From the NCBI GenBank assembly GCA_009869945.1, contig WIXG01000077.1, positions 186,001 through 250,000 of the forward strand: DNA of 64,000 nt, read 5' to 3'. The notes under the pieces were generated by a model that worked only from the letters and a program-made list of their open reading frames with translations, did not search any database and was not told the origin of the DNA. The translations under genes were made by a program, and so were the position numbers. Origin of the DNA: Mesaphorura yosii. Lineage: Eukaryota; Arthropoda; Collembola; Poduromorpha; Tullbergiidae. Shown here in pieces: positions 1 through 59,500 of this stretch. The first letter of the stretch is position 1. Each line of letters begins with the position of its first letter.

Positions 1-2701
1 TTAGCTTGCATGCTGTCACTGCCACACGCTTGACTTCACTACAAATACAAGAATAAAGAATGGCCATTTGTGCATTAATCCAGTCCAGTAATGCGTACCA
101 CAGGCACAGTCAGAGGCACAAGTTCTTTAACCCACTAATTCCATTTGTAATATTTCGTATACACATTGCACTTGTTTGTATTCAAGTGGGAAGTCTAATG
201 CGTTTACTTTAATGCTTTTCGCGATAATCCTTACATGAAAACTTTCACTCAAGTGCGCTGCAAGTTCAGATTTGCGTGTCATGAGTTGGTGCGCAGATTT
301 TCGTTGGTAATAAGAATGCTGGTTTAGTTTTATACCCGGCCAGTGTATGAAGGAGCAGTAATAACTAATGATCCACAGCTTTACCAAACGTCACCTTGCC
401 CAGCCTAAGCTATGAGCAGTGTTCAGGCTACAGGATAATAAAACTAATTATTACTCGTAAAAGTCATGCCCGTGACTGTGCTGAACAAACATTTGGTGTG
501 TACCTTGCTGGCCACTGATTCAATTGCCGCGCACATGAGCTCGCGAAATGAATAGGGCCTCGTACAAAATGACCTACTCAATAGCGTTTATTGTGAGTTC
601 ATTTGTTCATTTTCCTGTTTTAAATGGTAATGGGCCTTCACTCACCCAAACTGCTTTAAAGTATTACTTTAGGAATTAGAAACACCTGAGCTGGTGTAAG
701 GCTTGGGGGTACTATTGTTTTGTCACGAAATCTGGTCGAAATCCAGTAATCGGACGTTTTAATTGGACATAACTCCAATGTTAGTACTTTGTGGTGTCTG
801 GCAGCCTGAGACCAATCTAAACCCAATGCAACAAATATGAACACACAGCACACCGTACCGTGTGCTGAGGAATGCTGACCATTCCGATTTCCCAAGTGGA
901 AGCGTGCTCGCCAATTCAACAAATCAAATTCAATAGTCACATTCCAGGAAGTCACGAAAAACGATTGAGTTTATGAAAGTAAAGCATTCATGTTTTCGGT
1001 ACTGCAAAATAAGTAGAGCAAACTCGGATATGCTAAAGCGGACGTAAATTTAATGCAAGGTGGAGCTGGAAAGGTTAGTATGCAGATTTGAAAAATATTT
1101 TGTACCGGCGCGCTAAACTTCCATGGCATACTTTAGCCGTGTATCGCAAGTCTAACACCACGCTCAAGAGGATACGGGAACAAGAGTCGATAGGCAGTGA
1201 GAAAGAACACTACTCTACACCAACACGGCACGGTACAACACACAATGGCACTTCCGTGATTGAAAACTACCAAAACTCCTTGAGGGAAACATGAAACTCC
1301 TCATAACACACATAATACAACTTGTTCACTTTACCACGCAGCAGCAGCAGCATAAGCGTGCAGCAACTTTCACTTCGTCTTCACAATAATTCAAACAATG
1401 CGCCCGTAATGCCGTAGTCATGCACACATGCAAGATCACGCCTTACCCGTAGTCATGCTGAACCAAATTTGTACCGTAAAGTTCCTGGAGAGTTTAAAAT
1501 ATGTTTTCTCTCGTGTAGGCCAGGCCATATTTTTCGTATCAAAGCACATCGCATTACATATTGAACTTTTTTTTCGTGTTACGCGTTATTGTCGTGTACT
1601 ACATTATTTTCATGTTCCTTTCTCCATTTTTAGCTTCTTTTCACATTGCTTTACAAGCGGCATGGAATGCCATGCACTTTCTCGGCTGCCGATTGCATGG
1701 ATATTGTTATGTGAAAGATAATGTATTACATTCCATTTTCCGTTTGCAGAATAACTCACACTCGCATGGCACTCACGCATCGTCTAACGGCCTTAAACAC
1801 ACTTTGACTCGATTTGTTTGCTACCTGAATGCGAAGGCGAAGCTTGCACGTTGCGTAAGGAGTAAAGTGCGTGAGTCAGTTGCTCGTATGAAAAATCGTG
1901 CTTCTGGAATAACAGATTTCACCAAAACGCTTCGTATGGACTGGCTAGCTTTCCCATGTGCATTCCGTTGTCCAATCCAATTGCCAGGTCATGGAAGTAT
2001 GTAACATTCTTCTGCTTGAAAATCTTTAATGTTCGAATTACATTAAAATAGTAAAACGATCAACGGTCGATCGAATTTGCCTCGTGTTCTCGCTCTTCTC
2101 GATTTTATTCCAAAAGTGCAACCGAAAACATATGGCTTTAATGCGCCATTTTCTGAGAAACGCGTAGGCACATCGCAGAAGCACGATCTGTACTTCTGTT
2201 GCTTTTTGCTAATGCAATTTCAGTAGTTTATGCTTGAGAATGGGAAATAAAGCTTGAAATGGAATTGAACAGGAAACAATAATCTTAAATAGAATTTGTA
2301 TTATTGTTTCGCATCACTTTTATGGCGATGCTGAAATGTCTACAGCCTTTGGATGTGTACGAAGAAATAAAACCAAATAGTTAGAGTTCGAGATCAAGTA
2401 CCAGGATAGAGCAGCAGCGTGCATGCTGCAGGACATTTGGTCCATTGTCCATAACACATAACAACTGTCACCATTTGTCTTCATTCACTGTGGCCGTACG
2501 TGTTGTTAACCTTTCTCCGTCTTGGAACAAAAGCCTTCCCAAGGATACAGTAAGTTTAATTCTTGAGATCAGAAACACAACAGCGTGGAAGGACGTGGAC
2601 AAGAAAAGCAGTAAAAAGGTCCGAGTGAGTTGAGTTCAAGATTGGTTGTAAAACTTCGCAGATCGGTACAAGAACATAAAATGGTGCCCGATTCCACTTA
2701 C
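1..2701. other. Left-edge intron of the Side-like gene
   Basis: This should be the intron after exon 14. I tested several minus-strand donor-like sites (near 233, 505, 643 and 1447) for a membrane-spanning exon in the right phase and none gave one. The plus-strand frame at 1561-2004 is T-rich and hydrophobic but resembles no known protein. A short CAG run near 1339 is the only simple repeat. Confidence 0.6.
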
Positions 2702-2912
2702 CAGATTGCATGGCAGGATAATGCAATGCGATTCCATCCATAATCGTTGGACTACTTCTACCTTTTCGATTGACCGCGTAGATTTTGAAATGAAATGTTC
2801 CTTCCGTGTCGAGATCGGTGAGCGAGAACGTCGGACTGGTCTTTGAGGAGATGTTAAATTGTAGACCACGACGAAATGATGGTGCTGATTGAAACGCTTC
2901 CAGGATAAACAG
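2702..2912 (-). CDS. side-like: Side-like exon 14: FN3 second part, last exon seen
   Basis: Phase 0 in and phase 1 out, acceptor TACTTTTACAG, donor GTAAGTGG, so at least one more coding exon must follow. It encodes LFILEAF, SPTFSLTDLDTEGTFHFKIY and AVNRKGRSSPTIMDGIAL. The F-x-L-x-DL...F-x-IYAVN-KGRS pattern closes the FN3 domain. The transmembrane helix and tail normally follow; none is visible in the remaining 2.7 kb. Confidence 0.94.
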
Positions 2913-5900
2913 CTGTAAAAGTACACGGAATGAGTACCAAGTACGACATCATGGTTTAAATGCGAAGAGCGAACGAACTGGGCTGAAGTGTTGAAGAATA
3001 CCTGCGGAAGACCGCCGTCAAATCCTGGCTCACAAGTGAGTTCCACGGAAGTACTAGTGCGGTTCACGATGGAGCAGTTCTCGACAGGTTGCGGAACATC
3101 TGAAACAGAACGAGCAAAAATGTAGTACTCATCGCCGCCGAGCCGGGCTTGGTCGCTGCACTGGAATGACTGCACTAATACTTAAAATAAACATTCCAGT
3201 ACGTAAGTACACGTATAATGGTATTGCAATGGCATAATAGAAGAATCAGGGACACCCAAAATGACATCCATGAATGTAATGCGCATTGTGGAAGGGCGAC
3301 GACCGTGTCCTTCGCCAGAAATGCAGACTGCAGAATATTGTAACGTAAGAGACAAGAATAGGATTTGGTTTTAAGAGGTTCTTTCACTTTCTAATTCCAG
3401 CCCACACAGTGTCAGCTTTCTCCTTCGTCTTGTTCTTATTGCCACTTGCACTTCAAAATTTAATCCTCTTACAACAATAATGTAAAATTAGTAAATGAGA
3501 GTCCTTCCGCCTCTTTTCCAAGATTTATTAATTCACTTTCCTTCCACTTTCAACTCATTCATTTCTCGAGCGCCCTTGCCTCACTTCGAGACTTTCCTTA
3601 TCTCGCGTATTTTGCATGTGAAGTAATTTCTCAAGTGGGTTGACGTTATTCCTTAGTATCAGGCTATAATGGGATGGGAATGTCAACGTCTTTTAATTCA
3701 TCCGGTCGGAGGATGGTGAAGAGCGAGCGCTGCAGTAACCCGAGCATGGCATTTCTTCATTTCCATCTTCACCTCCTCTTCACGCCTTAAACGATTTAAC
3801 AGAGATGAACCACTTCGTAGAATGACTAAAGAGTTGTCATCTCATTTACCATCCCACTTGTTTTTACACTGCAGTTACTGTGAATTAGTCAGCTCATGCC
3901 TTGCAGGCAAACACTTTCGTATAACGGTACAAAAAATAAATATAGAGTTCAGCCAAACTTTTTCCTGGTCTGCCAGCCCCTGTCGTAATTGCGCACAGGA
4001 CTCGTGAAGAAACTCTTGAAACTTAGCGTTGCGCAGCAGTGAAGGAATGAACAGGCTGATTATGATGATAAATTAGCAGTGAAAACTAACACAAGTGCTT
4101 AGGTACTAAATGAGCAGGAGAAGAAGTCTAAAAACTAAAAGAATTGGAAGAAAACTTGAATATGTCTTCCTTCACAGATCGGACCAGGAGAAGAGACAGC
4201 ACTTCAACTCCAAGTGTTAAACAATTTCATAAGACAAAGTTTATCCTCTGCACTTTCTGCTCTCCCTCAGCTACGTTGACATTCAACTTGTTTCGCAAGT
4301 CATTACTTCCTGTGGAGAAGGTTGCGTCATTCATTTTGCCCGGTAGTATTCTTCGGAGGCCTCAAATGAGTCAGGCGCTTTTGCACAGCTTATTGAAAAT
4401 ATTTGCAGTCCTTCAGCCTTCCACATGCAACACGCCATCATCAGGGGCAGGAGCAGAAATGGAGATGATGATCACCAACATGTGGTGGTATTATTTTTAA
4501 GGATGAAGATGCGTCGGTTTTATTTATCTTTTTACGACTGAAAATTGTTCCGTTCAAACTCATAAAACTAGCGAGTGTGGAATTATTACCCAAGGCGATA
4601 CGATACGGCATGCTGCCCAAATTTTGCCGATAAGCGGATGAGCAGGCAGTGTGAATCATGGGAAGCAATAAAATGATGTCTCATACGAAAATAATCTCGC
4701 ACTTAATACTCGTTCCGTTCAGTGAACCTTAGATCAGGAAAGAGCGGAAAATTTAACGCCGAAGCGTGCCTTTTGGAAAATGGCCAATTTTCAAAATCTT
4801 TCCATTATAAAAAATTCTAATCGCAGTAATTTCTTCACCTCAGATTAAAACCTACGCTCCCATCTTTTCTTTTGTGTGGTCTTTTATTAAAACTTCAAAA
4901 CTAAAAGAAATGAACGCGAAAACTCTTGTGAATCAAGTTCAATGCTTTGCCCTTCCCATTGCATTGAATTCAAGATTTCAAAAGCGCACAGCATCAACGA
5001 CATGCAATGCAGTTGGACGAGGTAAATGACAAAAGAGCGAGATGATTGAATGGAGAAGTCGCACTCGCACTGTATCCAAAAGTGCAAGAAAAGAAAAGAA
5101 ACGCGAAACACGACGAGGAGGGGAACAAATTCGAGGAGAAATTGTCGCAATTTCGCATCCTATAATACTAATATTGCGTGTCAAGGAATCGTTAAATCTA
5201 GCTTCAATGTTCTTTTCCCAGGGAAGGGTGAGAGCGTGGTTGCACTTTATTCAGGTTTACAAAAAATTGCAAAAGAAATACGCGACCGTGCGCGCTTCTT
5301 ATTTATTGCAGTGAAAAGTTCTGAATATTGTCTACGCAAGCAGCAGCAGGTGAGCACTCGGTTCCCTCCACTGCAACTTTTGATTCACGTAATAATAACC
5401 CAATGTTTACAAGGTTAGTTTATGATGATTGTAATTTCGAGTCGACAAAGGATTATTATTACCAGCAGCGCAGTCGACCATCAGCCATCATTCCAGACCT
5501 CCTGACTTGGAAGTTGTAATTCAAGACGCACTTTCCTCGCGCTGCACTCTTTACAGGATACTCGAATTCATACAGTTTTTGTGTATGATGTGAAAGTGTG
5601 TGGGAAAGGCGAAGCAAACCAGACGCCCTTTTCCGTTTTTTATTTACAACAAAATGTTCAGACATTTCGCATGAGCAAGGTTACAGAAACACTTTCGGTA
5701 GCAATTTAGAACCGAGAAATGAAATCCATTATAATTATGAATGACAATGTCAAATACTTCTATCCTCGTGCCAGGCCGCTGCCGCAGTGCAAATGGAATG
5801 ACAAAACATGACCCAAACTCGTAAACCGTATGCTAAATGCCTGGCGTGGCGTGCTCGGTGGGACACTGCAACATTTTGCTGCTTTTTATTATAAATAATT

Positions 5901-8900
5901 ATTCTAAACTCCGTGCCACTTTGCTACTTTCACTCTCAGCGCTTTAGAAGCAGGCAAGATGGTGATGGTGATGACGATGACTACGATGACTGTAATGGGT
6001 TATACTTTATTTGGACCCAGCAGACACTCACGCCTAATAAAAATAATAATTCACAACGCCCAGACACGGTTCAGTCACAGTTCGCAAGCCGAGAGCTCAA
6101 GAAGCGGCAAAAACTTTTGTTTCTATTTAAACTAAAGATTAATATAATTTCCTACGGTCTAGAAAAGTGAAACGAGTTGATATTAGATGAGCTAAATTAC
6201 TTCTGCGAGCACTGCCTTGACTTGGCTGCAGATCTGCGTGACATTCCGCTACCATTCATTGTGCTGTATAATGTGTCCTCGTGGAAAACCTAGAATGTGT
6301 CACAAGTTGACGCTTAAAAATATATATTATCCGCTCAACTCCGTTCTCTCAGCCTCCAAGTTTGAAGGCAGACGAGTTAAAACTAAGCAGCTCAATGCTC
6401 AAGTTTGTCTGAAACAAGGACAAAGCACTGCTGAAACGAGGCATGTGCCGTTTGCAGTTGCCTTCCTCTAAGTTTCCATTTCTGGGAACAGCAGTGAATC
6501 TCGCAAGTCATAAGTCAACATTCAGCAGAGGAAGCCAAGGAATATGGAAGCTGGGACCAAGATGGTTGGGAAATTGGTGACAAGTAAGACAGTTTACAAG
6601 TCACCGCAACAAAACAAGAAAAAACTGAATGTCAAAGCCCCTAAAATGAAACCATTGAAAGACAGGAATAAGTTTACGGTTTTATAACAGTTGAGACAAT
6701 TTCAAAGTCCGTGACGGGTTTGTCTTTACGCTGTGGCTGCGTGTCAACAGTCAACGAGGGTTGCAGTTCCACTCCCACTGCATAATTTTGTGCTGACTGC
6801 TGACTCGGCTCTTTGCTAAGGAGGATGAATTTGAAGCAGAATGAGAGACGGAGAAACTAACCTGCTGGCACTAATTGATAAATACATGGTCTTTCAGCAG
6901 TCCCAATAGAATTAGAGGCGAAGCAGAGGAGTGTTCCAAAGTCGTTTTCGTTCTTCACATGATATGAAAGTAAACTTCTTGATCCATGGTTGGAATAAAT
7001 CTCTGACGGCAACTCGGAACTTTCGCCGACCGTGTTTGTGTGTGTCCAGTGGAACTTGAGATTATCAGGAAGAGCGTCCATCTCGCAGTTGATGCGCACA
7101 TCCTCCATCCGGGACGCCGCTATAATTATAGCTCCTCCGTCTGTACCTGACAAGTTGGCCTGACATGCAGGAGCATCTGGAATGAACAACAAAAATTGTA
7201 TAAAATAATAACAAGTTACGGCGCAGAATATCAAGGAGTGAATCTCCGAGAATTAGGTCTCGACTGGAGCACGGCTAAAGGTCCATCACTTTAAGTAGCG
7301 TCCTAAACAATAATGTACACAATGGCACGTTATTTCTTTTCATTTCATTTCCCAGTGGATTCGCACACACATGCACGCACTCTGAGCTTAAAACTTTCAC
7401 GAGCTGCTTGTCTTGAAAGACGTGCATTCAAATCAATAAAGTGCTTCATTCTTCCTTATTGCATTCCTTTTTCTTGTGACTTCAGGAACCTTTCATGAAA
7501 ACTTCTTCCCAGCACGCACACTGGAGAAAGAAAGACACAGGCAGACACTTGGCATGTGCAGCTCAACTTACACATTATCTCCAGAAGAACTTCATTACTG
7601 TAACCAATTCCTTGTTGATTGACTGCACGGCATGAATAATTTCCACGGGACGGGCGACCAACGCGTTGGAGTACAAGACTCTGATTACTGAGAATGATGC
7701 CAGCACTCTGGTTATGGTGAAGAATAGCACCCTGGGTGAGAAATAAAACCGTCATTACTTATAAAGTCATCAGGCGAATAAAAAGGTGATAAAATTCACT
7801 ATCAGCGCGCATATCTGGGTAGTATCATTATTATTACCAGCAAGGAGACACAGAACTACACAGCGCCATATGTTTTTTTTTATAAAATATCTCTTCGTCT
7901 AGAAAAATATCCTACAGTTCTGGTTTGCAGAGAGCAATAAGCTGCTGGAGTATTTCCACCAAATTCTTTACCTCTAAATGCTCACTCTGTCTGTTTTCGC
8001 TCAAATTATTCAAATTGGTAAAAAGACCAGCACAAATAAAAGCGGTGACGGTGAACGCACGCTAATACACATTCCCAAAAGGGTTTCTCGCACAAACCCG
8101 GTCATAAAACTAATACCAGTTGCCAGCCCAAGCCTCTTTGGATCACATTGCCTTGCGGATTGCGGGGCGGCCAAGAAACGGAAACGGAAGAAATGCTCGA
8201 TATTTTAAGTAATAGTAAAACTAAATACGACAGACTAATAAAAAAAATCGTACGGCAAAAGATCATAAAATATTGTCATAATATGTATCATGTAGGCATT
8301 TGTTTATATTTGTAGGAAACTCATGTTGGATAAAAATACATTTTTACAACGTAAACTTTTACTGCACACTGCACGGGTAACGTGCCCGGCTAAAATAAAA
8401 ATACTGCAGAATATTATGATTATTGCTATTCAAATTCGTAAATTTTGATCACGCAATTCGCCTTTCCCTGCCACCAGTCAGCCAGTCACAAGTTTCAAAG
8501 TATTTTATTTTACTTTTTTATGATTTCTTTTCCTCATGCCGTGCGCCCGTGACTGGGAGCTGGAGTTTGTCGTCCTGCTGATGTTGATGATGGAAGTTCG
8601 GGAGGGAATGTCAAAGTCTGAACTAAAGTAGCTTAGCCTGCATGGGCACGGGCGCAAACACGAGCATGATGTTTCTGCGTTCAGGGAGCATTTACAGCGA
8701 AAATAGAAAACCAAAATGTGGTAAAAATAACAATTAATCGTTCTGGTGCTCGAATGACAGACACGCATTTTTCACACCCAAACTTCTTCCTCCAGTTTTG
8801 TTCTCGGTTCGTTACGCATTGCTCGCCATTGAATGACTGTTATTGACTCACGGACACGGACAGGCCATGACTGAAAGTATCGGGAATGTACTGAACACTT

Positions 8901-44900: not shown

Positions 44901-47900
44901 ACTGCAAGAAGAAATCAAAGATTCGCCTGAGGAGTTGATGGTGTATCGAGTTGACACAAGTGATGCGATAAATCAAGAGAAGAAAGGCAGCAAGGTTTCC
45001 ACTCAAAGGATCCGAGGAGACACGCAACTTCGAGCCGCATCTTGGCTTGGATTCGTAAATCACTGTTGTTGTTGTTGTTGCTCGTCTCGTTTCCTTTGTC
45101 TTCCACTTTCGTGGAAGACCGAGTACGTCTAGCTTGATGTCAGTGTATTGTATTTCTCTTGGAAACCATGAAGTAAACTTGAAGAAACCCAATAATAAAC
45201 CTTATACGCGGTGTTGAATGCGACGATGTAGTGCACTAGGCACTGAAGACTGTGAGGACTAAGCCAGTACTTGCAACAATAATGTCGTCAACATTCTGGC
45301 TCCAACACAATGCCCGTAGTATATAATACTTATTTAAAATAAATAACCTTTTTACATATTGGAGAAAATGATCATTCATCTTGGCCATCTGTTTTTCTTT
45401 CTCTTCCCATTTTCTTGTCTCAAGGATTTTCTCCGTGGCGCAGAGTGTATTTGGGTTTACCGCACCTTAACTTCCTTTATGCCAGTGCCATTATGGTGCA
45501 CTTATAAATTCCAATGTCGCTGCTCTGCTTGGTTTAAGCACATGGAAATGATCTCTTGGCTTGGTAGTGTGTCAGAGTCCTTGCCAGCTATGAATCCAGT
45601 GTCGTCGTCCTTTCTCTCTCGTGTTCAAAGCCAAAGCCAACTACCCCATTATCATTATAATATTATATGGAGAATTCATTCCGTAAAATGTGACTAAGGT
45701 TTTACTCTAATCTGACAACAAAATTAATCATTTGCCTTTCTTCCTCGCCTCCTAAGCCTAGTCACCGAGCTTCTATTCCATCGTCTTTTGCTATTTTCGG
45801 CAGCAACACGGCACAAGTCCTTCCAAAACTGAAACTTGGGTTGAAAGAGTTGAAAACTGGATCTATTATGGTAGCAGTAATCTCAAATATTTAATCATTC
45901 AATGAAAGACTCGTAATGCCCACCAACTCACTTAGTTTTATCATTATTAACGCAGAGTGCAAATTTGAAAATGTCTTGAACAGTTGCGAACATGTCACGG
46001 CGTCGACAGTCGACACACACCACATTAAACGGGGCTAAAATATATTTGCAGCGGGTCTAATACTTTGTTATTGATGCTCTTTGAACTTGCACAAATTATA
46101 ATTCAAAGCAAGGTGATGAATGATGTGCGTGCTTTATGACATGTGCTGACAACAGAACTGCCAAATGAAATGATATGAGAACATGATTGCAATCACGAAA
46201 ACAATTATAATCTCGGTCAACAAAGTTCGGCTCAGTGATTGTGATTATAGCTGTCATTAGACGTTGACTATGTCACAGACACAAAGGCAGGATATTGTAG
46301 TCAACAAAACAAAACAGGAAAGAGTCAGTTGTGCGTGTCCTCACAGACTGCGAGCGAGATTGAAGCTAAAACGATTTTAATAACTTACAGGAAATGTGAC
46401 CAGAAGCGCAAACAAAGGGATTAAATTTCATGCTCCACATTCAGGTCGGCAATTAGGTCAATATTTATTAGCCAAGAATTGTCAAGATTGCTTTTGCAGA
46501 CGTCGTTCATAGACGCATGGACATTGAGCAAAAGGCCATTATTGGTTCACATTCAATTTATTTCATTTTGCGCCAATGTAAAAGGTGAAAGTGACAAAAT
46601 TGTGTCTTATGGAAGAGTTCTCAGATATTGTTTTCTCGATTTAAGAAAAGCGTGCATCAATTCTTCGAATTCAAACAAACCAGTATACTCAAATGAAATT
46701 AGATTTACAATTCAATCTTATCAGTTTTATATTTGAAAATATTTGGTAAGGTAAAGAATCTGCGTGTCGACACACGGAATGCGAAAATCACGCTCTGAGC
46801 ACGGAGAAATAGAAAATACGGCAATATGCTTTGATAATGGAACGCAATTGTTGGATTATTTACACCTTTACTCCATTCCAACCGTTCTTTATGGTTAAAA
46901 TGTGTTACACTCACGAACAATAAAACTGCGACATTACAACGGGTACAAAGAAATGGTTAATTTTGTCCAATTTAATAATGCAAACGGTACAATTTTGGCA
47001 ACATTCATTGTAGTGCAAATGAATAGAAATTATTATGAGCAACATGCTGGGGGAAATGAACTTGTTCACTAGTTCACTGCTAACTTCAGACTTCCATGTC
47101 ATTACCGAGAAAGCACAAACCGAGAAAGTCTCAATCGAGAAGCCAAGACCGAGAATCTTGGACCGAGACGGGCATGAATCGAGAAAGGCATGAACAGCGA
47201 GAAGCATGAAAAGGACAAATGAAGTAACAAAGTCGTCAGAAACTAAGCTACAAATATTCAGAAAACATGACAAAAATGTTATATTAAACGAAAGATATGT
47301 GCGATTCCAGTCAGATAGTTTTTTTTTGAAATGGTACCGAACTTGTCAAGTAGGTTATTCAGTCTTTTCTTATTCACGATATTTGAGATGTCTAGCCGGT
47401 GGTTGCAAACCCGGTGCCGGTTGGTTTAAACGGAAAATAGTGTGATCTTTGCAACGAACCTGTTTCTTGCACAAAGGCTGAGAAAGGCATATGAGGCCTT
47501 CAGCCTAGGCAGCTGAGGCTGCCTGCTGGCTCGACTGAGAGACCAGCGCTAATGCCGACAGTGCGTTCGGATTAGCATTTTAAGATAAGGGATCCGATAT
47601 CCTTGTAAATAGTTGAGTATGAGACTCAGAAGTTCAAAAGAAGGTTTAGAGAGAATAGGTCAGTAATTGTGGTTCGTTAGCTTAGATGGTAGAGCTATCG
47701 GGGCCAATCCGAGCGACACGGGTTCGAATCTGGTACGAGTCACTTAATTTTTACTCTTTTCCTTCATCCTGTTCTTTTTTCAGTACGTCTATGAATTTCC
47801 ACAGGCTGGAATGATCAGCACGAAGTAATGGAGAGGAGTGTCTAAAATTACAGACTGCACGACAAAGAGAATGTGGAAGGGCTTATCAATACATTTGATG

Positions 47901-49961
47901 CAAATCTTTTTCAACTGAGACGACTAGGAAATCATTGAAGGTAAACAAAGGAGTACATGCTTCTCGCTGTTCACATTTTTCTCGATTCATGCCCTTCTCG
48001 GTTTGGTTTTCTCGATTGTGACTTTCTCGGTAATGACCTGCTACGACTTTAGAAGCATTATTTGTTCAGGTGCTGTTGCAGCGGCATTTTGGGTTAAAAA
48101 TCCGAGGATGACTTTTAGTGCTGTTTTCAGGCACGAAGGGAGTTAATGCACAAGGTTTTTCGTCGGTCCTGAATAATGGAGAAAGTTCGCCTGACGACAT
48201 TCGCCGTCCTGCTAGAAGCTATGTTTATGAATATTGGATTTGTTTAATGGACGCATTATTAATAGCGTGAGAGAAATTCGGCAATGGCTATGAAGCATGG
48301 AGGAACAATGACAATGCAGTACAATAAAAATCGATTGGTGAGAATTATGATATCAATTACGTTTCAGAGTTAACGTCAGGTACAATTTATTATGCAAATA
48401 TAAAGCTCCGCTCACTCAGCACATTTTACCCGACAGAGCACAGTGACAGAGCCCTATGCTGTATTGTGTTATGAGTATTTAATGCTCTTACTCATTTTCT
48501 GCCAACTATAAAAAACAGATGGGACTCTTACCAAAGCATGCAAGACCACGCTGAGCTGGGACACACTTCCAAGTCAAAGTCATATTTTTAAGTATTTCCT
48601 AAACTTTTTAAATCTCTTTCTTGGCTGCCATCTTTATGGCTTATATTTGAGAAGGAGAAAAATTATGTCATGACTCAGATTTAGGTGTCTTTTAAAAGTG
48701 GAAAGTTTGTTGTTTATTGGTAGGAAACTTATAGGCAGAGTAAACATAAATAAAAGTCGAGTAGGTCCACACTTTCCCTTTCATTAGCAGTGCCGGCACC
48801 AAGTGATGACCGAAGAAAGTGCAAGTTTTTCCTGGTCCCAAGTCCGTAATTAAGAACTACGAACTTCTAAACTAAATACAAGCACTTCAGCAATAGGCTT
48901 TAATGCTTCAGTGTCGTGGGCCAGACAGGCCGCCGACTTTGTTGAAAGTGAACTTGTACATGAGTCCATGTTTACGCTTTACTTATACTTTGCAAAGTAA
49001 ATACACTCCGAGGGCTTATCCAGTTGTATCGAAAAGAAGGCACCGAGGCGTTGGTTTACCGTGAGTAAAGTATCTGACTAAAATTATAATTTTGCACATG
49101 ATCAAGCAAAATTAAACCTTGCTTTCCTTCCGTACAGCATGCAGTACAAAACTTGCCTTCTGCCGCCTTCCTGTAATTCACTAATCGCTAATCGGATTCC
49201 GCCCTACGTCAATCAAGCGTGCGTACTTTGCTGGCCAGCGTTACTTAGGGCCTAGTAAAATGAAATGTGTTGCAAAGAACAAGAAATCACATACCTGAGG
49301 AGGACGACGGAAGAACGGCATTATTGGAAGTGATGGCGGGTGTCACAACTGGTGACAGCAGACAGAGAGTGAGAACGATTATGGAGATGATATCACTTTT
49401 CACAAAACTAATTTGACACCTGACACGAGCCCATAACAAAGGGAGTAGTCGCGGTAGCAGTCCGTGTCTATGAAATAATGAGGAACATTTGGAGTCGTAG
49501 GAACCATTAACGCAAAAATCGAACTGGCTTCCCTCGGGCTGCCTCGATATGCATTGTTCGCTTCTTCTCACTAATCGTATTACTTGTTGACATAAAGTGT
49601 GCCATGAAGAATGGAGGAGGTTTATTATCAGCAACGGCGTTAAGAGTATTGACGAGGAGCGATACTTCAATCGGATTACTTTATTGGGGCAAATTTGATG
49701 CTGAGTTTCTTTGTCGGGAAAACAATTTGAGCTTTGCAGTCGAGCTTGTTTGCTGTCAGCTGAGAGTTGACATTTTTTCTTGCACAGCTTAATTTTTTGA
49801 TGTTGCTCATTTTGCTGCGTGATTTCCCTTCTCCGGTCATGGTCGTAATTCGGATAGTGACTGTAATCTGGTGGGTGTGAGGCTGTCATTCTCTCTAGAC
49901 TTGATTCCACTGCGACTACCGATGCTTCTGGTCCGACGACAAAATTATACTTCGCTTGCAT
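2702..49961 (-). CDS. side-like: Sidestep-like Ig-superfamily receptor, 14 exons, 3' end missing
   Basis: This is a cell-surface recognition protein of the arthropod Sidestep family; in Drosophila these are ligands or receptors for Beaten-path proteins in motor-axon guidance and synaptic matching. Fourteen minus-strand exons join with matching phases at GT-AG introns. Approximate order, counting from the ATG at 49961: signal segment 193-210, Ig1 228-338, Ig2 339-443, Ig3 444-542, Ig4 543-639, Ig5 640-744, FN3 745-847. Family hallmarks include YSLD after the Ig1 tryptophan, YRCRVDFR, DVYFEC, YAP-C at the Ig4/Ig5 join, and FDGGLPQ plus YAVNRKGRS in FN3. Every Ig domain keeps its cysteine pair. 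The membrane segment and tail were not found and should lie left of the window. The family is large in arthropods, so I name the family and not an orthologue of one Drosophila gene. Confidence 0.93.
3002..3099 (-). CDS. side-like: Side-like exon 13: FN3 first part
   Basis: Phase 1 in and phase 0 out, acceptor TCTGTTTCAG. It encodes DVPQPVENCSIVNRTSTSVE, then LTCEPGFDGGLPQ. NCSIVNRTS and C-x-PGFDGGLPQ are the classic start of the Side FN3 domain, with its own cysteine pair. The donor is the weak GTATTC; reading through it gives only a short nonsense tail, and splicing to exon 14 restores the domain. Confidence 0.94.
3100..6861. other. Side-like intron 12 (3.76 kb)
   Basis: Intron sequence between the Ig5 and FN3 exons. 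I see no coding signal on either strand. It contains a purine-rich stretch near 5085-5140 and an imperfect GAT-type trinucleotide run at about 5958-5995. No mobile element ends were recognised. Confidence 0.7.
6862..7176 (-). CDS. side-like: Side-like exon 12: complete Ig5
   Basis: At 315 nt this is the largest internal exon, phase 1 in and out, acceptor GTTCATTCCAG, donor GTTAGTTTC. With the split codon it opens Y-APAC and encodes MEDVRINCEMDALPDNLKFH, then SLLSYHVKNENDFGTLLC and FASNSIGTAERPCIYQLVPA. It carries Ig5 whole. Besides the canonical pair (INC, LLC) it has the family's extra cysteines APAC and RPCIYQ. N-DFGTLLC-ASN-IG is a clear Side match. Confidence 0.96.
7177..9285. other. Side-like introns 10 and 11 around exon 11
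   Basis: Apart from exon 11 (7572-7731) this stretch is two introns of 395 and 1554 bp. There is a T10 run near 7871. No other coding or repeat structure was recognised. Confidence 0.7.
7572..7731 (-). CDS. side-like: Side-like exon 11: Ig4 second half
   Basis: Phase 0 in and phase 1 out, acceptor TCTCACCCAG, donor GTAAGTTG. It encodes GAILHHNQSAGIILSNQSLV, then GNYSCRAVNQQGIGYSNEVL. It completes the family motif in which W-x-HN at the end of exon 10 is followed by N-x-x-x-G-I-I-x-SNQSLVLQ, and supplies the second Ig4 cysteine. Two NQS and one NYS sequon are possible N-glycosylation sites. Confidence 0.96.
9286..9416 (-). CDS. side-like: Side-like exon 10: Ig4 first half
   Basis: Phase 1 in and phase 0 out, acceptor TCCTTTCTAG, donor GTAAGTTC. 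It encodes SPVLTLRMGSSLNPKDIKEN, then DDVYFECSIKSNPPIQKLLW and YHN. The run SLNP-x-x-I-x-E-x-DDVYFEC is one of the strongest Side signatures in the window. Confidence 0.96.
9417..16281. other. Side-like intron 9 (6.9 kb)
   Basis: A large intron between Ig3 and Ig4 exons. Short open frames occur on both strands but none has recognisable domains or matching splice sites. There is an A10 run near 15255 and a short GAA run near 14785. Nothing else seen. Confidence 0.65.
16282..16426 (-). CDS. side-like: Side-like exon 9: Ig3 second half
   Basis: Phase 0 in and phase 1 out, acceptor CTTCATATAG, donor GTAAGTC. It encodes SVSRLSLIPTASLDGQRLMC, then RSENPLLPGSAIEDSWRLKVV. The D-G-x-x-L-x-C-R-x-EN-P core gives the second Ig3 cysteine and matches the family's 'L-C-RA-N-P' pattern. 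Confidence 0.94.
17544..17695 (-). CDS. side-like: Side-like exon 8: Ig3 first half
   Basis: Phase 1 in and phase 0 out, acceptor TTGTTTTCAG, donor GTTAGTCG. It encodes LRPLTVSLL, then YEIICESWGSHPAPQITFW and LDSQELKGGKAE. First cysteine and tryptophan of Ig3 are present; the C-x-S-x-GS-x-PAP-x-ITFW pattern is diagnostic for the third Ig domain of Side proteins. Confidence 0.95.
19207..19869 (+). other. Unexplained 220-codon open frame in an intron
   Basis: An ATG-initiated open frame of 220 residues runs antisense inside an intron of the Side-like gene. The protein is basic to neutral, has several cysteines and one mildly hydrophobic stretch (MLYLCLVFACSHGV), and resembles no family I know. 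A frame this long is not expected by chance at this base composition, and the stretch is not strongly pyrimidine-biased. No promoter, poly(A) signal or convincing splice partner was recognised. It may be chance, an old insertion or a nested gene. Confidence 0.2.
20212..20415 (-). CDS. side-like: Side-like exon 7: Ig2 second half
   Basis: Phase 1 in and out. It encodes GNPSPRVHWYLNDELVDSS, then ISVPNIQRSHHRARLACRAF and PPISKTVTIELN. It contains the Ig2 tryptophan (VHWYL) and second cysteine (RLACRA). The NPSPRVxWY motif is typical of this domain in Side and related Ig receptors. Confidence 0.95.
20416..21222. other. Side-like intron 6 with a small hairpin
   Basis: An 807-bp intron between the two Ig2 exons. 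It has no coding signal. It holds an inverted repeat at 20756-20798, listed separately. Confidence 0.75.
20756..20798. repeat. Inverted repeat with 8-nt loop
   Basis: The arms GTTCTGTGAAGCTGT (20756-20770) and ACAGCTTCACAG plus CACAGAAC (20779-20798) pair over 15 bp, with a five-base bulge on the 3' side and loop GCAACAGT. The stem is too short for a typical miRNA precursor, and flanks do not extend the pairing. Confidence 0.6.
21223..21333 (-). CDS. side-like: Side-like exon 6: Ig2 first half
   Basis: Phase 1 in and out, acceptor TTTTTTGCAG, donor GTAAGCTC. It encodes VPPDEPLIYENMG, then EVGPFREGSTLELTCIVRGG. The PP-x-P-I linker starts the second Ig domain, and LELTC supplies its first cysteine. 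Confidence 0.93.
21334..24493. other. Side-like intron 5 (3.2 kb)
   Basis: Intron between Ig1 and Ig2 exons. Bases 22560-22880 are purine-rich on the plus strand (GAAGAA, GATGATGA), and 22900-23140 are pyrimidine-rich. A 245-codon plus-strand frame spans 22799-23536 (separate entry). Nothing else recognised. Confidence 0.65.
22799..23536 (+). other. Unexplained 245-codon open frame in an intron
   Basis: This is the longest open frame in the window, antisense in intron 5 of the Side-like gene. Its first half lies in purine- then pyrimidine-rich DNA, where stop codons are naturally scarce, and reads as low-complexity Leu/Ser/Phe sequence. The stretch from about 23150 (RICFNGTEKVIQP, then LECRIWAK) follows a passable acceptor, CGATAACGCAG. 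It looks faintly like an extracellular domain, but I cannot assign it. Most likely compositional chance. Confidence 0.18.
24494..24537 (-). CDS. side-like: Side-like exon 5: last Ig1 strand
   Basis: A 44-nt exon, phase 2 in and phase 1 out, with acceptor TTTTGCAG and donor GTAAGTGG. It encodes NSPSRETRLNLTVV, the G strand of Ig1 (family pattern RN-S-TRN-x-NLTV). It is separated from exon 4 by a short 185-bp intron. Confidence 0.9.
24723..24887 (-). CDS. side-like: Side-like exon 4: Ig1 second half
   Basis: Phase 2 in and out. It encodes SLDIRGKPFSGAKHW, then a strand with GKRAHFRT, PAKLVVEGV and SDQGIYRCRVDFR. The D-x-G-x-Y-x-C motif supplies the second Ig1 cysteine, and YRCRVDFR is highly conserved in Side proteins. 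The donor reads AG|GTTCGT, weaker than most in this gene. Confidence 0.94.
24888..30570. other. Side-like intron 3 (5.7 kb)
   Basis: Intron inside the Ig1 domain. It holds short CAG runs (about 25426-25440) and purine-rich patches (about 26695-26725). No gene, RNA or mobile element recognised. Confidence 0.65.
30571..30673 (-). CDS. side-like: Side-like exon 3: Ig1 first half
   Basis: Phase 1 in, phase 2 out, flanked by ACAG and GTAAGTACGG. It encodes GKTVEMPCGI followed by AVYMVLWFRGDESIPIY, giving the first Ig1 cysteine and the core tryptophan. The LWFR...IPIY pattern, continuing as SLDIRG in the next exon, is the family's signature for this domain. Confidence 0.92.
30777..30812 (-). CDS. 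side-like: Side-like exon 2: 36-nt linker into Ig1
   Basis: A tiny exon, phase 1 in and phase 1 out, between acceptor TTTTGCAG and donor GTAAGTTGG. It encodes ADLSQSIDGVV, the start of the first Ig V-type domain. It was found only by phase matching between exons 1 and 3, and is too short for ORF callers. Its acceptance rests on perfect splice sites and a continuous reading through the join. Confidence 0.82.
33171..33190. repeat. Tandem duplication of a 10-bp unit
   Basis: ACTTGAAGGA occurs twice in direct succession in intron 1 of the Side-like gene. This is probably replication slippage. Confidence 0.8.
45064..45080. repeat. Short GTT microsatellite
   Basis: Five uninterrupted GTT repeats within intron 1 of the Side-like gene. 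Confidence 0.7.
47098..47208 (+). repeat. Left inverted terminal array, about seven CGAGAA units
   Basis: Units in order begin ACCGAGAAAG, ACCGAGAAAG, ATCGAGAAG, ACCGAGAAT, ACCGAGACG, ATCGAGAAAG and ACAGCGAGAAG. Each is followed by a 4-6 nt spacer such as CACAA, TCTCA or GCATGA. Such end arrays often serve as transposase-binding sites in DNA transposons; that role is inferred here. Confidence 0.78.
47502..47606 (+). other. Cluster of three short hairpins inside the TIR element
   Basis: Three consecutive inverted repeats lie upstream of the tRNA-like sequence. The first is GGCAGC-TGAG-GCTGCC, extended by AGCC/GGCT across an internal loop (47502-47530). The second is GCTAATgCCGA with TCGGATTAGC (47548-47576). 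The third is AAGGgAT with ATCCTT (47588-47605). They could form a structured transcript leader or mark an older insertion boundary. Short stems like these can also be chance. Confidence 0.4.
47671..47742 (+). tRNA. tRNA-like cloverleaf, apparent anticodon CCA, probably tRNA-derived
   Basis: These 72 bases fold as a tRNA. Acceptor GGTTCGT pairs with ACGAGTC over all seven positions, two of them wobble. The D stem is GCTT/GAGC and the T loop is TTCGAAT. A-box-like TAGCTTAGATGG and B-box GGTTCGAATC are present, and a T5 run follows at 47748-47752. The anticodon arm ATCGG-GGCCAAT-CCGAG puts CCA (Trp) at 34-36, but position 33 is G instead of U and the outer stem pair is A-G. The T stem has one G-G mismatch. 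It is therefore more likely a decayed or tRNA-derived Pol III unit carried by the element than a working tRNA-Trp gene. Confidence 0.5.
47956..48037 (-). repeat. Right inverted terminal array, about five CGAGAA units
   Basis: Read on the minus strand from 48037 it gives GTCATTACCGAGAAAG, then ATCGAGAAAA, ACCGAGAAGG, ATCGAGAAAA and ACAGCGAGAAGCATG. It aligns with the left array if two middle units of the left copy are skipped, so unit number has changed in one end by gain or loss. Confidence 0.78.
49295..49961 (-). CDS. side-like: Side-like exon 1: N-terminal extension and signal segment
   Basis: This is the putative first coding exon. It ends TCCTCAG before donor GTATGTG in phase 1, which fits the next exon exactly (Gly-Ala-Asp across the join). 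The hydrophobic run SIIVLTLCLLSPVVTPAI near the 3' end looks like a signal peptide or signal anchor. The frame stays open back to a stop at 49992-49994. In-frame ATGs lie at 49961 (A at -3) and 49889; the first is used here. About 190 residues precede the signal, rich in charged residues, Gln and Cys, which is unusually long. Part of it may be 5' UTR, or the start may be on an upstream exon. The signal end is secure; the start is not. Confidence 0.68.
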
Positions 49962-56513: not shown

Positions 56514-59500
56514 CTGGAATAAATTAGATGGCTGATTTCAGTGCAAACATTTCAGATGACTAATTAATCAATCGGGATGTACTACTTACGGCTGGGTAGC
56601 TTTTCAAAATCGGGAACGAGTTCTTGTAAGTGTACAGCTGGCCTGCTTCAATTGGACATCCGGGCTTGCCATCCATCTTGCGAACAATGTCTTTGCATGC
56701 ATTTGCGCCGTGAACTTCGCGGAATGGGACGCGGACGATTCCAATACCACCGAAAACGGCAGTTGTCAGTTGGTTGTAAGTTTTATCTGTGGAATTATGA
56801 AAGAGTATGAAACAGAAGCATTGATTTATCTGGGATGACCCTAAAGTGCAAACTCTCGTGCATTGGCATAAAACTCCAATTGAGTACTGACTACTTAGTT
56901 AGGGAATTTCTTGGTATTTAACGTCAGGCTTTTCCCACTTGATAACACTCTCACAGTCCCAGACTGGACTTTGTCTTTCTTATCAGCTGAGGCTTGGGAC
57001 AGCGTTCTAATCTCGGTCAACGGCCAAGCCGAAGTTCACAATCGCAACCCGAAGACTTGTCTCCGGAGACAGCCTGAGAGCTTTCATTATACTTTATACT
57101 GCTTTGTGACTTTTTATATTGCGATTTGGAGGCTAATAACAGTCAAGCGAGATGTTGGATAACAATATTACTACATTTGTAATTTCGCAACAGTTACGAC
57201 TGTAATGATACTGTCAAAGGCAGGTTATTATGAGCAGGGCAAGCTGGAACAGAACATGTAATTTAGAAATTAAGCATCGGAGTGGCCAGGCAAAGCCTGA
57301 ATTCGGACATATTTAATAAAAGGAAGGAACTTTTATTAGCCTGTCACCTTCTATCTGATGAGATATTATTGATTACTAGGTTGTTATTGCCCCAACCTTG
57401 GATCTTTCTGCGATCTAAGAAACGTTTCACTGCCTCTCAAGTTGTCGGCCTAACTCGCTTAACCCTAGTTCTGCATTTCACACACGATTGGGGCTGGGGT
57501 GAAAAAGCAATAATCTCAAGCTCTCGTATTTCTACAAACGCGTACCTGGAATGAAATCAAATTCGATGCTTGTTGTGTCTCCCTTTCTCAGCTTGCATGG
57601 TGTTTCGTCACAACTGCTCACGCGGACATCTTCAATTTTCGATGAGCCAAATGATCCGTCCCTTGCACCAAACAAATCTGTGAAACAAAAAACACGACCG
57701 AGTTATTGTTGGGTCATCATTTGGGAGCATGGAAAGGTTGAAATCCTTAATCTCTGTAAAATTCTTGCCCGAGGAGTAAAGGAGCAAAGCTGGATTATTC
57801 TGGGCCTTTGCTTTCACTTTTCGTGTGCTTTCTGTCTGTACAAAGCGTGGTGAAGGTTGTCAACATGTTTAATAAGTGCCATGTACACCACAGCTCCCGG
57901 CAACCATGGCTCACGTAGCGTGGACGCACAGAGAGTGCAATAAAAGTACGGTTACCTTGAACTATTTCTGTCATGTCATTGTTCTTGTTGAACTAGTAGC
58001 CAGTCACGGCTGGTCCTGAACATTGAACATGTCCTTGTAATAATGCATTTCCAGTTATGCGCTTACATGCTACAATGCTGGACTAGAGACTCCAACTATA
58101 ACTACTACATGCTGGTTGAAATAAATGGACACTGCTTTCCAGATTGACAGATCAAATTGACCGAAATTGTTTGGAAACGTGTTTTGAAATGAAATCAGGC
58201 AGGAGCGTAAACAGAGCGTAAAAACTGGAACACAACAAAAGAACTCTGACATTTTGAGCTATGCTGCTGCCTTCGTTTCAAAATTGCGGTGTACTAACCT
58301 AACAAATCCCTGCCGGATGAGCATAGTTAATTCATTTGATTGCGATAGTGCTTACAGTTAATCCAATGCTGGAGATGAATGAAACTTGTACAACTTGCAG
58401 AAGCTTCAATAAGAAAAGCATGTTTGAATTAGTTCTGGACACTTTGCCTCCGAAAGAAGCAGCCAATTCTTATTCATGCTGCCTACAACAATAATAAATA
58501 TTTAGATTCAGTCAAACGAAGAGTGAGTTGAAGTAACTGCATCTTCATTCTTCGTCTGCTGTTCCTCTCTTCCAGATCCCATCAACACGTCCAGCGTATT
58601 TGTGCACGAGTGGGCACAGAGTCGGAGGTTTTGTCCTACGACGACCCACTAGAAGGGTTCAAGAGTGAAAGCTAAAGCACTAAACAAGAAAAAGTCTAAA
58701 CAATACGCGAGGAGAGCGAAAGACAAGAGGCAACCATTACTCAAGATGGATTTTAAAGGTATCTTGAGGAAGAAAAGTTTACAAGTTACGTTTTCCAGAG
58801 ACTTTCTCAAGACAAGGAAAACTAACACGCTTCATTTCGTTAACTTTGTTGGAGAGAAGAATGGAGGAAAGTGCTGCTGGTAAAGTCCGACACGGCCCGG
58901 AACACGTCCGTGAGAAAATACGAAAGGAGCAATTCATAAAGCGTCGCACAAAGAATCTCAATTTCCATTGTGCGTAATTCCCTTCTGCTCCTTCCACTCT
59001 CAGCCTTAGCCATCATTCTACAATTGTTAACCCAAAGAGGCTGGTATTTCCTGCATATCAAATATTCTCTGGCAGATGAAGACTTTCAAGGCGTCAACGT
59101 GCACAGTGCACCACTTGCTTTGCTATGCAGATTCCGGACACATTAAAAAATTTTGCATTCACTGAAAGCCGGTAGGTTTCCTTTATCAATGGAACAAGAC
59201 TGCAATGTAGGAAGGAAACTCGAATGCAAACCAGCAATACTGTGGAAAACTGATTCTTATGATTATGAATATGGCAATACATTTGAACAAACCAACAATG
59301 AACTCCAACCAACGTAGATCAAATTGCGCGTGTAATGCCTGGAAGCGTTTAGTCACATTTCCCAGGTTGGATCAAACTGCGGAAGACGAAACGTTTATGG
59401 TTATATTTGGAAATTAATTTTGCTTGGACTGAATTATGGATGGCATTTTCATTTGAATGAAATTCATAGGCTCGTCGTATTACGTCTGCTTGATTGAGTT

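Follow-up and report, generated by a model that had tools for sequence, protein, structure and literature searches.

The element at positions 47091-48045 of the window, the 64-kb stretch of DNA on contig C77 that was analyzed here, is very probably an old, internally deleted, non-autonomous FLYWCH-MULE, Phantom-like and foldback-ended, which carries a nested LTR insert. It measures 955 bp with the insert and approximately 640 bp without it, and its strand (minus) is given by the sense of a remnant of transposase coding. Its extent is based on ends common to its relatives and on a sister copy on contig C107, which can be aligned on both sides of the insert. The Phantom-type class is a provisional assignment based on the MULE and FLYWCH domains of relatives, the ends and the target duplications. 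The first-pass annotation of this DNA had proposed a non-autonomous element with arrays of subterminal repeats, and its reading as a DNA transposon is supported; at least one further copy exists, on C107, and a longer coding relative with similar ends is present on C1031.

The ends of the element are inverted composite structures with tandem units of about 12-16 bp, a feature of the foldback type. The left end (47091-47203, plus strand) comprises the outer motif CTTCCATG, the core GTCATTACCG and seven CGAGA units at 47106, 47121, 47136, 47150, 47164, 47180 and 47198, with a spacing of 14-18. The right end (47962-48045, minus strand) comprises five inverted units, which read TCTCG at 47962, 47980, 47996, 48010 and 48025, the core CGGTAATGAC and the outer motif CTGCTACG; the units as a whole occupy 47106-47202 on the left and 47962-48029 on the right. 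Per 110 bp, the densest part of the window contains seven units on the plus strand and five on the minus strand, compared with a maximum, on either strand, of two (169 shuffles) or three (31 shuffles) when the whole window was dinucleotide-shuffled 200 times. The 16-bp terminus GTCATTACCGAGAAAG is present with the same letters at 47098-47113 and, inverted, at 48022-48037, and an independent inverted-repeat detection identified repeats of 33-69 nt with 78-86% identity. Both the seven-left and five-right inverted arrays of units of approximately 15 bp and the identical 16-bp start of the two arrays, as initially described, were thus recovered, with unit counts far above those of the shuffled controls. 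The limits initially drawn at 47098 and 48037 located the element correctly but fell slightly inside its true ends. Because the outer ends, CTTCCATG... on the left and ...CCTGCTACG on the right, are also found in relatives and there continue beyond the core, we place the limits at 47091 and 48045.

Aligning the copies yielded, in addition to these ends, an imperfect 8-bp target-site duplication, as envisaged in the first-pass annotation. Its left copy ACTTCAGA (47083-47090) and its partner ACTTTAGA (48046-48053) agree in 7/8 positions. Among the relatives, the duplications agree in 8/9 positions on C107 (CGAAACTAC/CGAAACCAC), 8/8 on C576, 8/10 on C156 and 7/9 on C11, and in 8/8 on C1031 (TTATTTAC), the last at a wider slack than the random-pair control covers. 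In this control, made up of 20000 randomly paired places, zero, one and two mismatches occurred 13, 152 and 1108 times, respectively, so that 165 pairs had at most one mismatch. The duplications of C156 and C11 are weak because two mismatches arise often among random pairs. Target duplications of 8-10 bp, a trait of Phantom/FLYWCH-MULEs, are found among the window element and its relatives. The imperfection of the window's own duplication, and likewise of those on C107, C156 and C11, counts against the MULE reading.

Two decayed pieces of transposase coding, both on the minus strand, flank the insert. The piece at 47767-47843 encodes part of the C terminus of a MULE transposase and was identified by tblastn against a frame on C1092 (residues 246-271 at 47766-47843, 58% identity, E 5e-06). 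The piece at 47326-47449, the last part of the transposase coding, was identified both by tblastn (residues 270-289 of the same frame at 47391-47450, 50% identity, E 0.006) and by blastn, in which 47326-47405 matched C997 and 47337-47403 matched C156. In the numbering of the C1092 frame, the insert lies between the remnant's residues 271 and 270. On C107, where the insert is missing, the remnant runs unbroken from residue 246 to residue 285 (55%, E 2e-06) and includes a stop. The catalytic, more upstream part of the transposase gave no significant tblastn match in either the window or the C107 copy. Given that the C terminus is kept and the catalytic part is without a match, the copies on C77 and C107 appear to derive from a MULE by internal deletion. 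The earlier statement that the element contains no protein frame is correct with respect to an intact frame, but not with respect to this decayed transposase C terminus. Elsewhere in the window, a Pfam scan of five frames gave two matches only: a weak immunoglobulin-domain match on the minus strand at 6857-7252 (26.7 bits, below the cut-off of 30), in a frame whose PDB matches, to Dpr-interacting proteins of the fly and to adhesion proteins of vertebrates, are weak, and an ML-domain match (NPC2/Der p 2-like) on the minus strand at 56560-56898 (42.4 bits). These two frames indicate no more than an animal host, possibly an arthropod.

The element is not a single copy in its source genome of 93 Mb. 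The 940-bp query identified one other array-bearing element, on C107 (L009 1889-2523), in which query positions 22-347 and 672-940 lie only 3 bases apart, so that this copy lacks approximately 320 bp from the central part of the window element. This copy has both end types, one exact and one with two mismatches, as well as CGAGAA-type arrays. Since the bodies of the C77 and C107 copies are 69-74% alike, the subfamily looks old and is probably silent. A strict pattern of three CGAGAA cores had 21 matches in the genome and two in a reversed control; five of the 21 are in the window element, none is in the C107 copy, and the others lie on eight other contigs, where no family ends were found at the matching loci. 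The strict pattern thus marks only the window element within the family, and the mobility of the subfamily rests on two copies together with more distant relatives. An exact match to TCATTACCGAGAA is present at seven places genome-wide. Three of these mark ends of the two elements with CGAGAA units, one on C38 consists of an outer motif and a single unit in the absence of an array, and no element was recognized by eye at those on C46, C62 and C736.

We read the ends of ten relatives (on C107, C156, C11, C576, C473, C444, C520, C1066, C1092 and C1031). They share the core GTCATTACC, exactly or in variant form, and outward of the core they have CATGGAA or a similar sequence at one end and CCTGCTACG or a similar sequence at the other. 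CGAGAA-type units are present among the elements read on C77, C107 and C1031. Exact CGGTAATGACATGGAA is found six times in the genome, and exact CGGTAATGACCTGCTACG three times. Compared to the reversed control, end patterns had 108 versus 51 matches with up to two mismatches, and 40 versus 44 with up to three mismatches. As the loosest end matches are no commoner than in the reversed control, only close matches count as evidence. A protein search of the genome with the C1092 frame returned 133 matching pieces and a search with PF10551 returned 48 matches, indicating that MULEs are common in this genome.

A longer relative with similar termini that encodes a transposase, as anticipated in the first-pass annotation, is present on C1031 (L058 546-2762). 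Both the FLYWCH and the MULE frame of this 2.2-kb relative lie on the minus strand, with Pfam scores of 36.1 bits for FLYWCH (PF04500, cut-off 23.6) and 64.5 bits for MULE (PF10551, cut-off 27.6), and CGAGAA-type units are present at both ends. Exact CGAGAA cores occur six times in its 3′ end and twice in its shorter 5′ end, alongside more near-copies, and its outer ends are GGTGTCAGGTGATTTCCGAG and GATTCCATGTGATTTCC. Its units have diverged, and one stop ahead of the C-terminal frame breaks the MULE frame. Three stretches of this contig (12252 bp; L058, L059 and L060), at a spacing of 4044 bp, are identical over the 3288 bases compared. Each contains a FLYWCH-MULE together with its flanks, and the repetition is due either to recent tandem duplication or to an error of assembly.

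A relative of 2.5 kb on C156 (L086, approximately 2215-4734), decayed and almost full-length, has both end types; ACCGCGTC-type units form an array on its 5′ side, and one end reads CGGTAATGACCTGCTACG. Its FLYWCH domain (PF04500) scored 47.3 bits; of its MULE pieces, the longest open one scored 24.6 bits, below the cut-off of 27.6, and the genome search gave 41.6 bits. In both C156 and C1031, FLYWCH lies upstream of the MULE frame and in a different reading frame. The relative on C1092 (PF10551, 62.9 bits) has an exact CATGGAA end, and ends lie within 0.4 kb after the MULE coding sequence in C1092 (CGGTAATGACATGGAA) and in C473 (CGGTAATGACCTGCTACG). Short relatives with both end types are present on C576 and C11. 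At a MULE end on C444 (L093 1-190), 16-bp CCTGAACCTCGAAAAG units follow one another cleanly; six places on C444, C732 and C733 have exact pairs of this unit, against none in the reversed control. At three loci (C520:37125/37172, C46:322590/322638 and C274:78934/78981), CATGGAA-type ends with zero to two mismatches follow each other in the same direction at a distance of 47-48 bp, which suggests doubled ends.

The insert within the transposase remnant occupies 47450-47766 (plus strand). It begins with TG, ends with CA and is 317 bp long, and its flanks TCTT (47446-47449) and TCCT (47767-47770) form a 4-bp target duplication that agrees in 3/4 positions. Near its 3′ end, at 47671-47743 (plus strand), lies a tRNA-like sequence in which A and B boxes were recognized by eye. 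ARAGORN called a tRNA-Trp(cca) at these positions and the Rfam tRNA model scored 31.9 bits (gathering score 29), in support of the tRNA-like cloverleaf noted initially. Relatives of the insert stand alone on C30 (85%), C145 (partial) and C25 (more distant), between identical 4-bp flanks of GACC, CGGT and CACT, respectively. Among the four copies, three start with TG (C25 with CG), all four end with CA and three have identical 4-bp flanks. The tRNA model exceeds the gathering score in the window and on C30 and remains below it on C145 (23.3 versus 29), and ARAGORN calls a tRNA in two of the four copies. The copy on C25 (L089, reverse complement, approximately 1453-1744) has a similar body and 3′ tail and a strongly diverged tRNA-like region; a different second tRNA, suspected there by eye, was dismissed, as neither ARAGORN nor Rfam detects a tRNA in this copy. 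No second LTR was found within 3-4 kb around each of the four copies, and no internal part or primer-binding site was seen. The absence of a second LTR is consistent with solo LTRs. TG...CA termini are a general mark of LTRs, and the insert is most likely a solo LTR from a TRIM of the Helenus type, in which the pol III promoter is tRNA-like.

Its tRNA-like unit, its length of approximately 300 bp and its occurrence as single copies lacking a second LTR in the surrounding 3-4 kb could also suggest that the insert is a tRNA-derived SINE, which we regard as unlikely. The tRNA-like part is located at the 3′ end, so that pol III transcription from there would miss the first 220 bp, and a poly-A or simple-repeat tail was not seen. 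The TG start (3/4 copies), CA end (4/4) and identical 4-bp flanks (3/4) also argue against a SINE, as does the combination, in animal Helenus elements, of 4-bp duplications with a tRNA-like sequence in the LTR (PMC10886601, in the part cited here). An insert of the SINE type with a 6-7 bp duplication had been considered and was dropped when the comparison of the four copies gave TG...CA termini and 4-bp duplications. Concerning the MULE itself, it had been suggested that the element captured a tRNA-derived unit or inserted around one. Approximately 20% of Muta1 derivatives have internal regions that align with host genes, according to the cited part of PMC5225508, which favors a Pack-MULE-like capture during transposition. 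This is nevertheless very improbable here, given that the tRNA-like part sits in a separate 317-bp insertion that interrupts the transposase remnant and is absent from C107. The unit has a flank duplication of its own and copies on C30, C145 and C25, and the sister MULE on C107 is without it at the precise site, save for an exact excision there. We rejected tRNA capture on the basis of this precise empty site, the unit's own copies and its own flank duplications. Finally, the hairpins and inverted arrays might form base pairs at the RNA level, and would then belong to a structured non-coding RNA gene or a regulatory array of no mobile origin, an interpretation that we find barely credible. The ends, arrays and transposase remnants recur elsewhere in linkage with coding MULEs, target duplications and transposase similarity are both present, and tRNA is the only Rfam family with a match above the gathering score in L001 and L010.

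The initial view that no named family has this layout is not supported: judging by the parts of the reports cited here, Tm1 (PMC3169594) and Muta1/Muta5 (PMC5225508) have it. Arthropod MULEs are also the subject of a 2026 survey (PMC13359780). Since foldback MULEs of this layout have been published, the window element adds a member to a known kind. Tm1 is a Mutator/Foldback family of root-knot nematodes (Meloidogyne) (Gross and Williamson 2011, PMC3169594). In the cited part of its description, as in the elements reported here, asymmetric outer motifs (A1/A2) lie outside the inverted repeat, the ends contain a variable number of tandem units (13-15 bp), target duplications are 8-10 bp long, the transposase has FLYWCH and MULE domains, most copies are short and MITE-like, insertions are nested, and some short derivatives retain patches 3′ to the MULE domain. 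In contrast, Tm1 has the ends CGGTTAA/CCTACCC and the unit CGATTCAGTATCCGC, compared by eye with CTTCCATG/CGTAGCAG and CGAGAA-type units here, and the elements described here do not show the end motifs and unit that are quoted for the Tm1 family proper (by eye; PMC3169594, cited part). Tm1 features Motif D and a histone hairpin, neither of which was noticed in our elements.

Muta1 and Muta5 are MULEs of Aedes aegypti (Liu and Wessler 2017, PMC5225508). As far as the cited part describes them, Aedes MULEs share with our elements the FLYWCH domain (13/14 Aedes families) and duplications of 8-9 bp. Nine subterminal repeats of 12 bp (Muta1) or 15 bp (Muta5) resemble the arrays reported here, as do non-autonomous derivatives with variable repeat number, a likeness by description. 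Muta1 is active, with seven identical copies (PMC5225508, same part), whereas the bodies of the C77 and C107 copies, at 69-74% likeness, are decayed. Helenus elements are TRIMs whose LTRs contain a tRNA-like sequence, and Arthropoda are among the phyla in which they are reported (Kojima 2024, PMC10886601). In the cited part of that report, animal Helenus combines 4-bp duplications with a tRNA-like unit, as does the 317-bp insert; by comparison, the insert is known here as single copies only.

In the history that we propose, the ends, arrays, duplications, transposase remnant, coding relatives and order of nesting are evident from the sequence. By analogy to published foldback MULEs, the FLYWCH-MULE transposase of the coding relatives would bind the subterminal units of approximately 15 bp and would cut at the asymmetric outer ends, and reinsertion would generate a target duplication of 8-9 bp. 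The window copy lost the catalytic part of the gene, keeping both ends and a C-terminal coding piece. Without a gene, it would be movable only by the enzyme of another copy, and on the same analogy we infer mobilization in trans in the past. An LTR element whose LTR contained a tRNA-like pol III promoter would have entered the transposase remnant and would then have been reduced to a solo LTR, for which we infer recombination between its LTRs.

Comparison of the relatives indicates the possibility of two details that may be new: subfamily-specific units, and a body that lies in either orientation relative to the asymmetric ends. By eye, the subterminal units are of CGAGAA, CCGCGTC, CCTCGA or CCGGGAAA type, depending on the subfamily. 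Among eight chosen elements, which do not constitute a census, the 3′ side of the coding sequence is at the CATGGAA end in C77, C107, C1092 and C520 and at the CCTGCTACG-type end in C156, C473, C11 and C1031, with C520 and C11 placed through the similarity of their remnants to C156. That foldback MULEs of this genome have similar asymmetric ends, with units that differ by subfamily and a body orientation that flips, is a tentative generalization that we put forward with some doubt. The differences between units would fit a turnover together with the DNA-binding part of the transposase, and recombination between the inverted arrays would yield flipped bodies.

In conclusion, the analysis extends the foldback-ended MULEs by one animal family, provides what is likely another example of an LTR bearing a tRNA-like sequence, and corrects the view that a tRNA had been captured. 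Similar ends with changing units, in both orientations, could serve as natural material for addressing which part of the end is read by the transposase.
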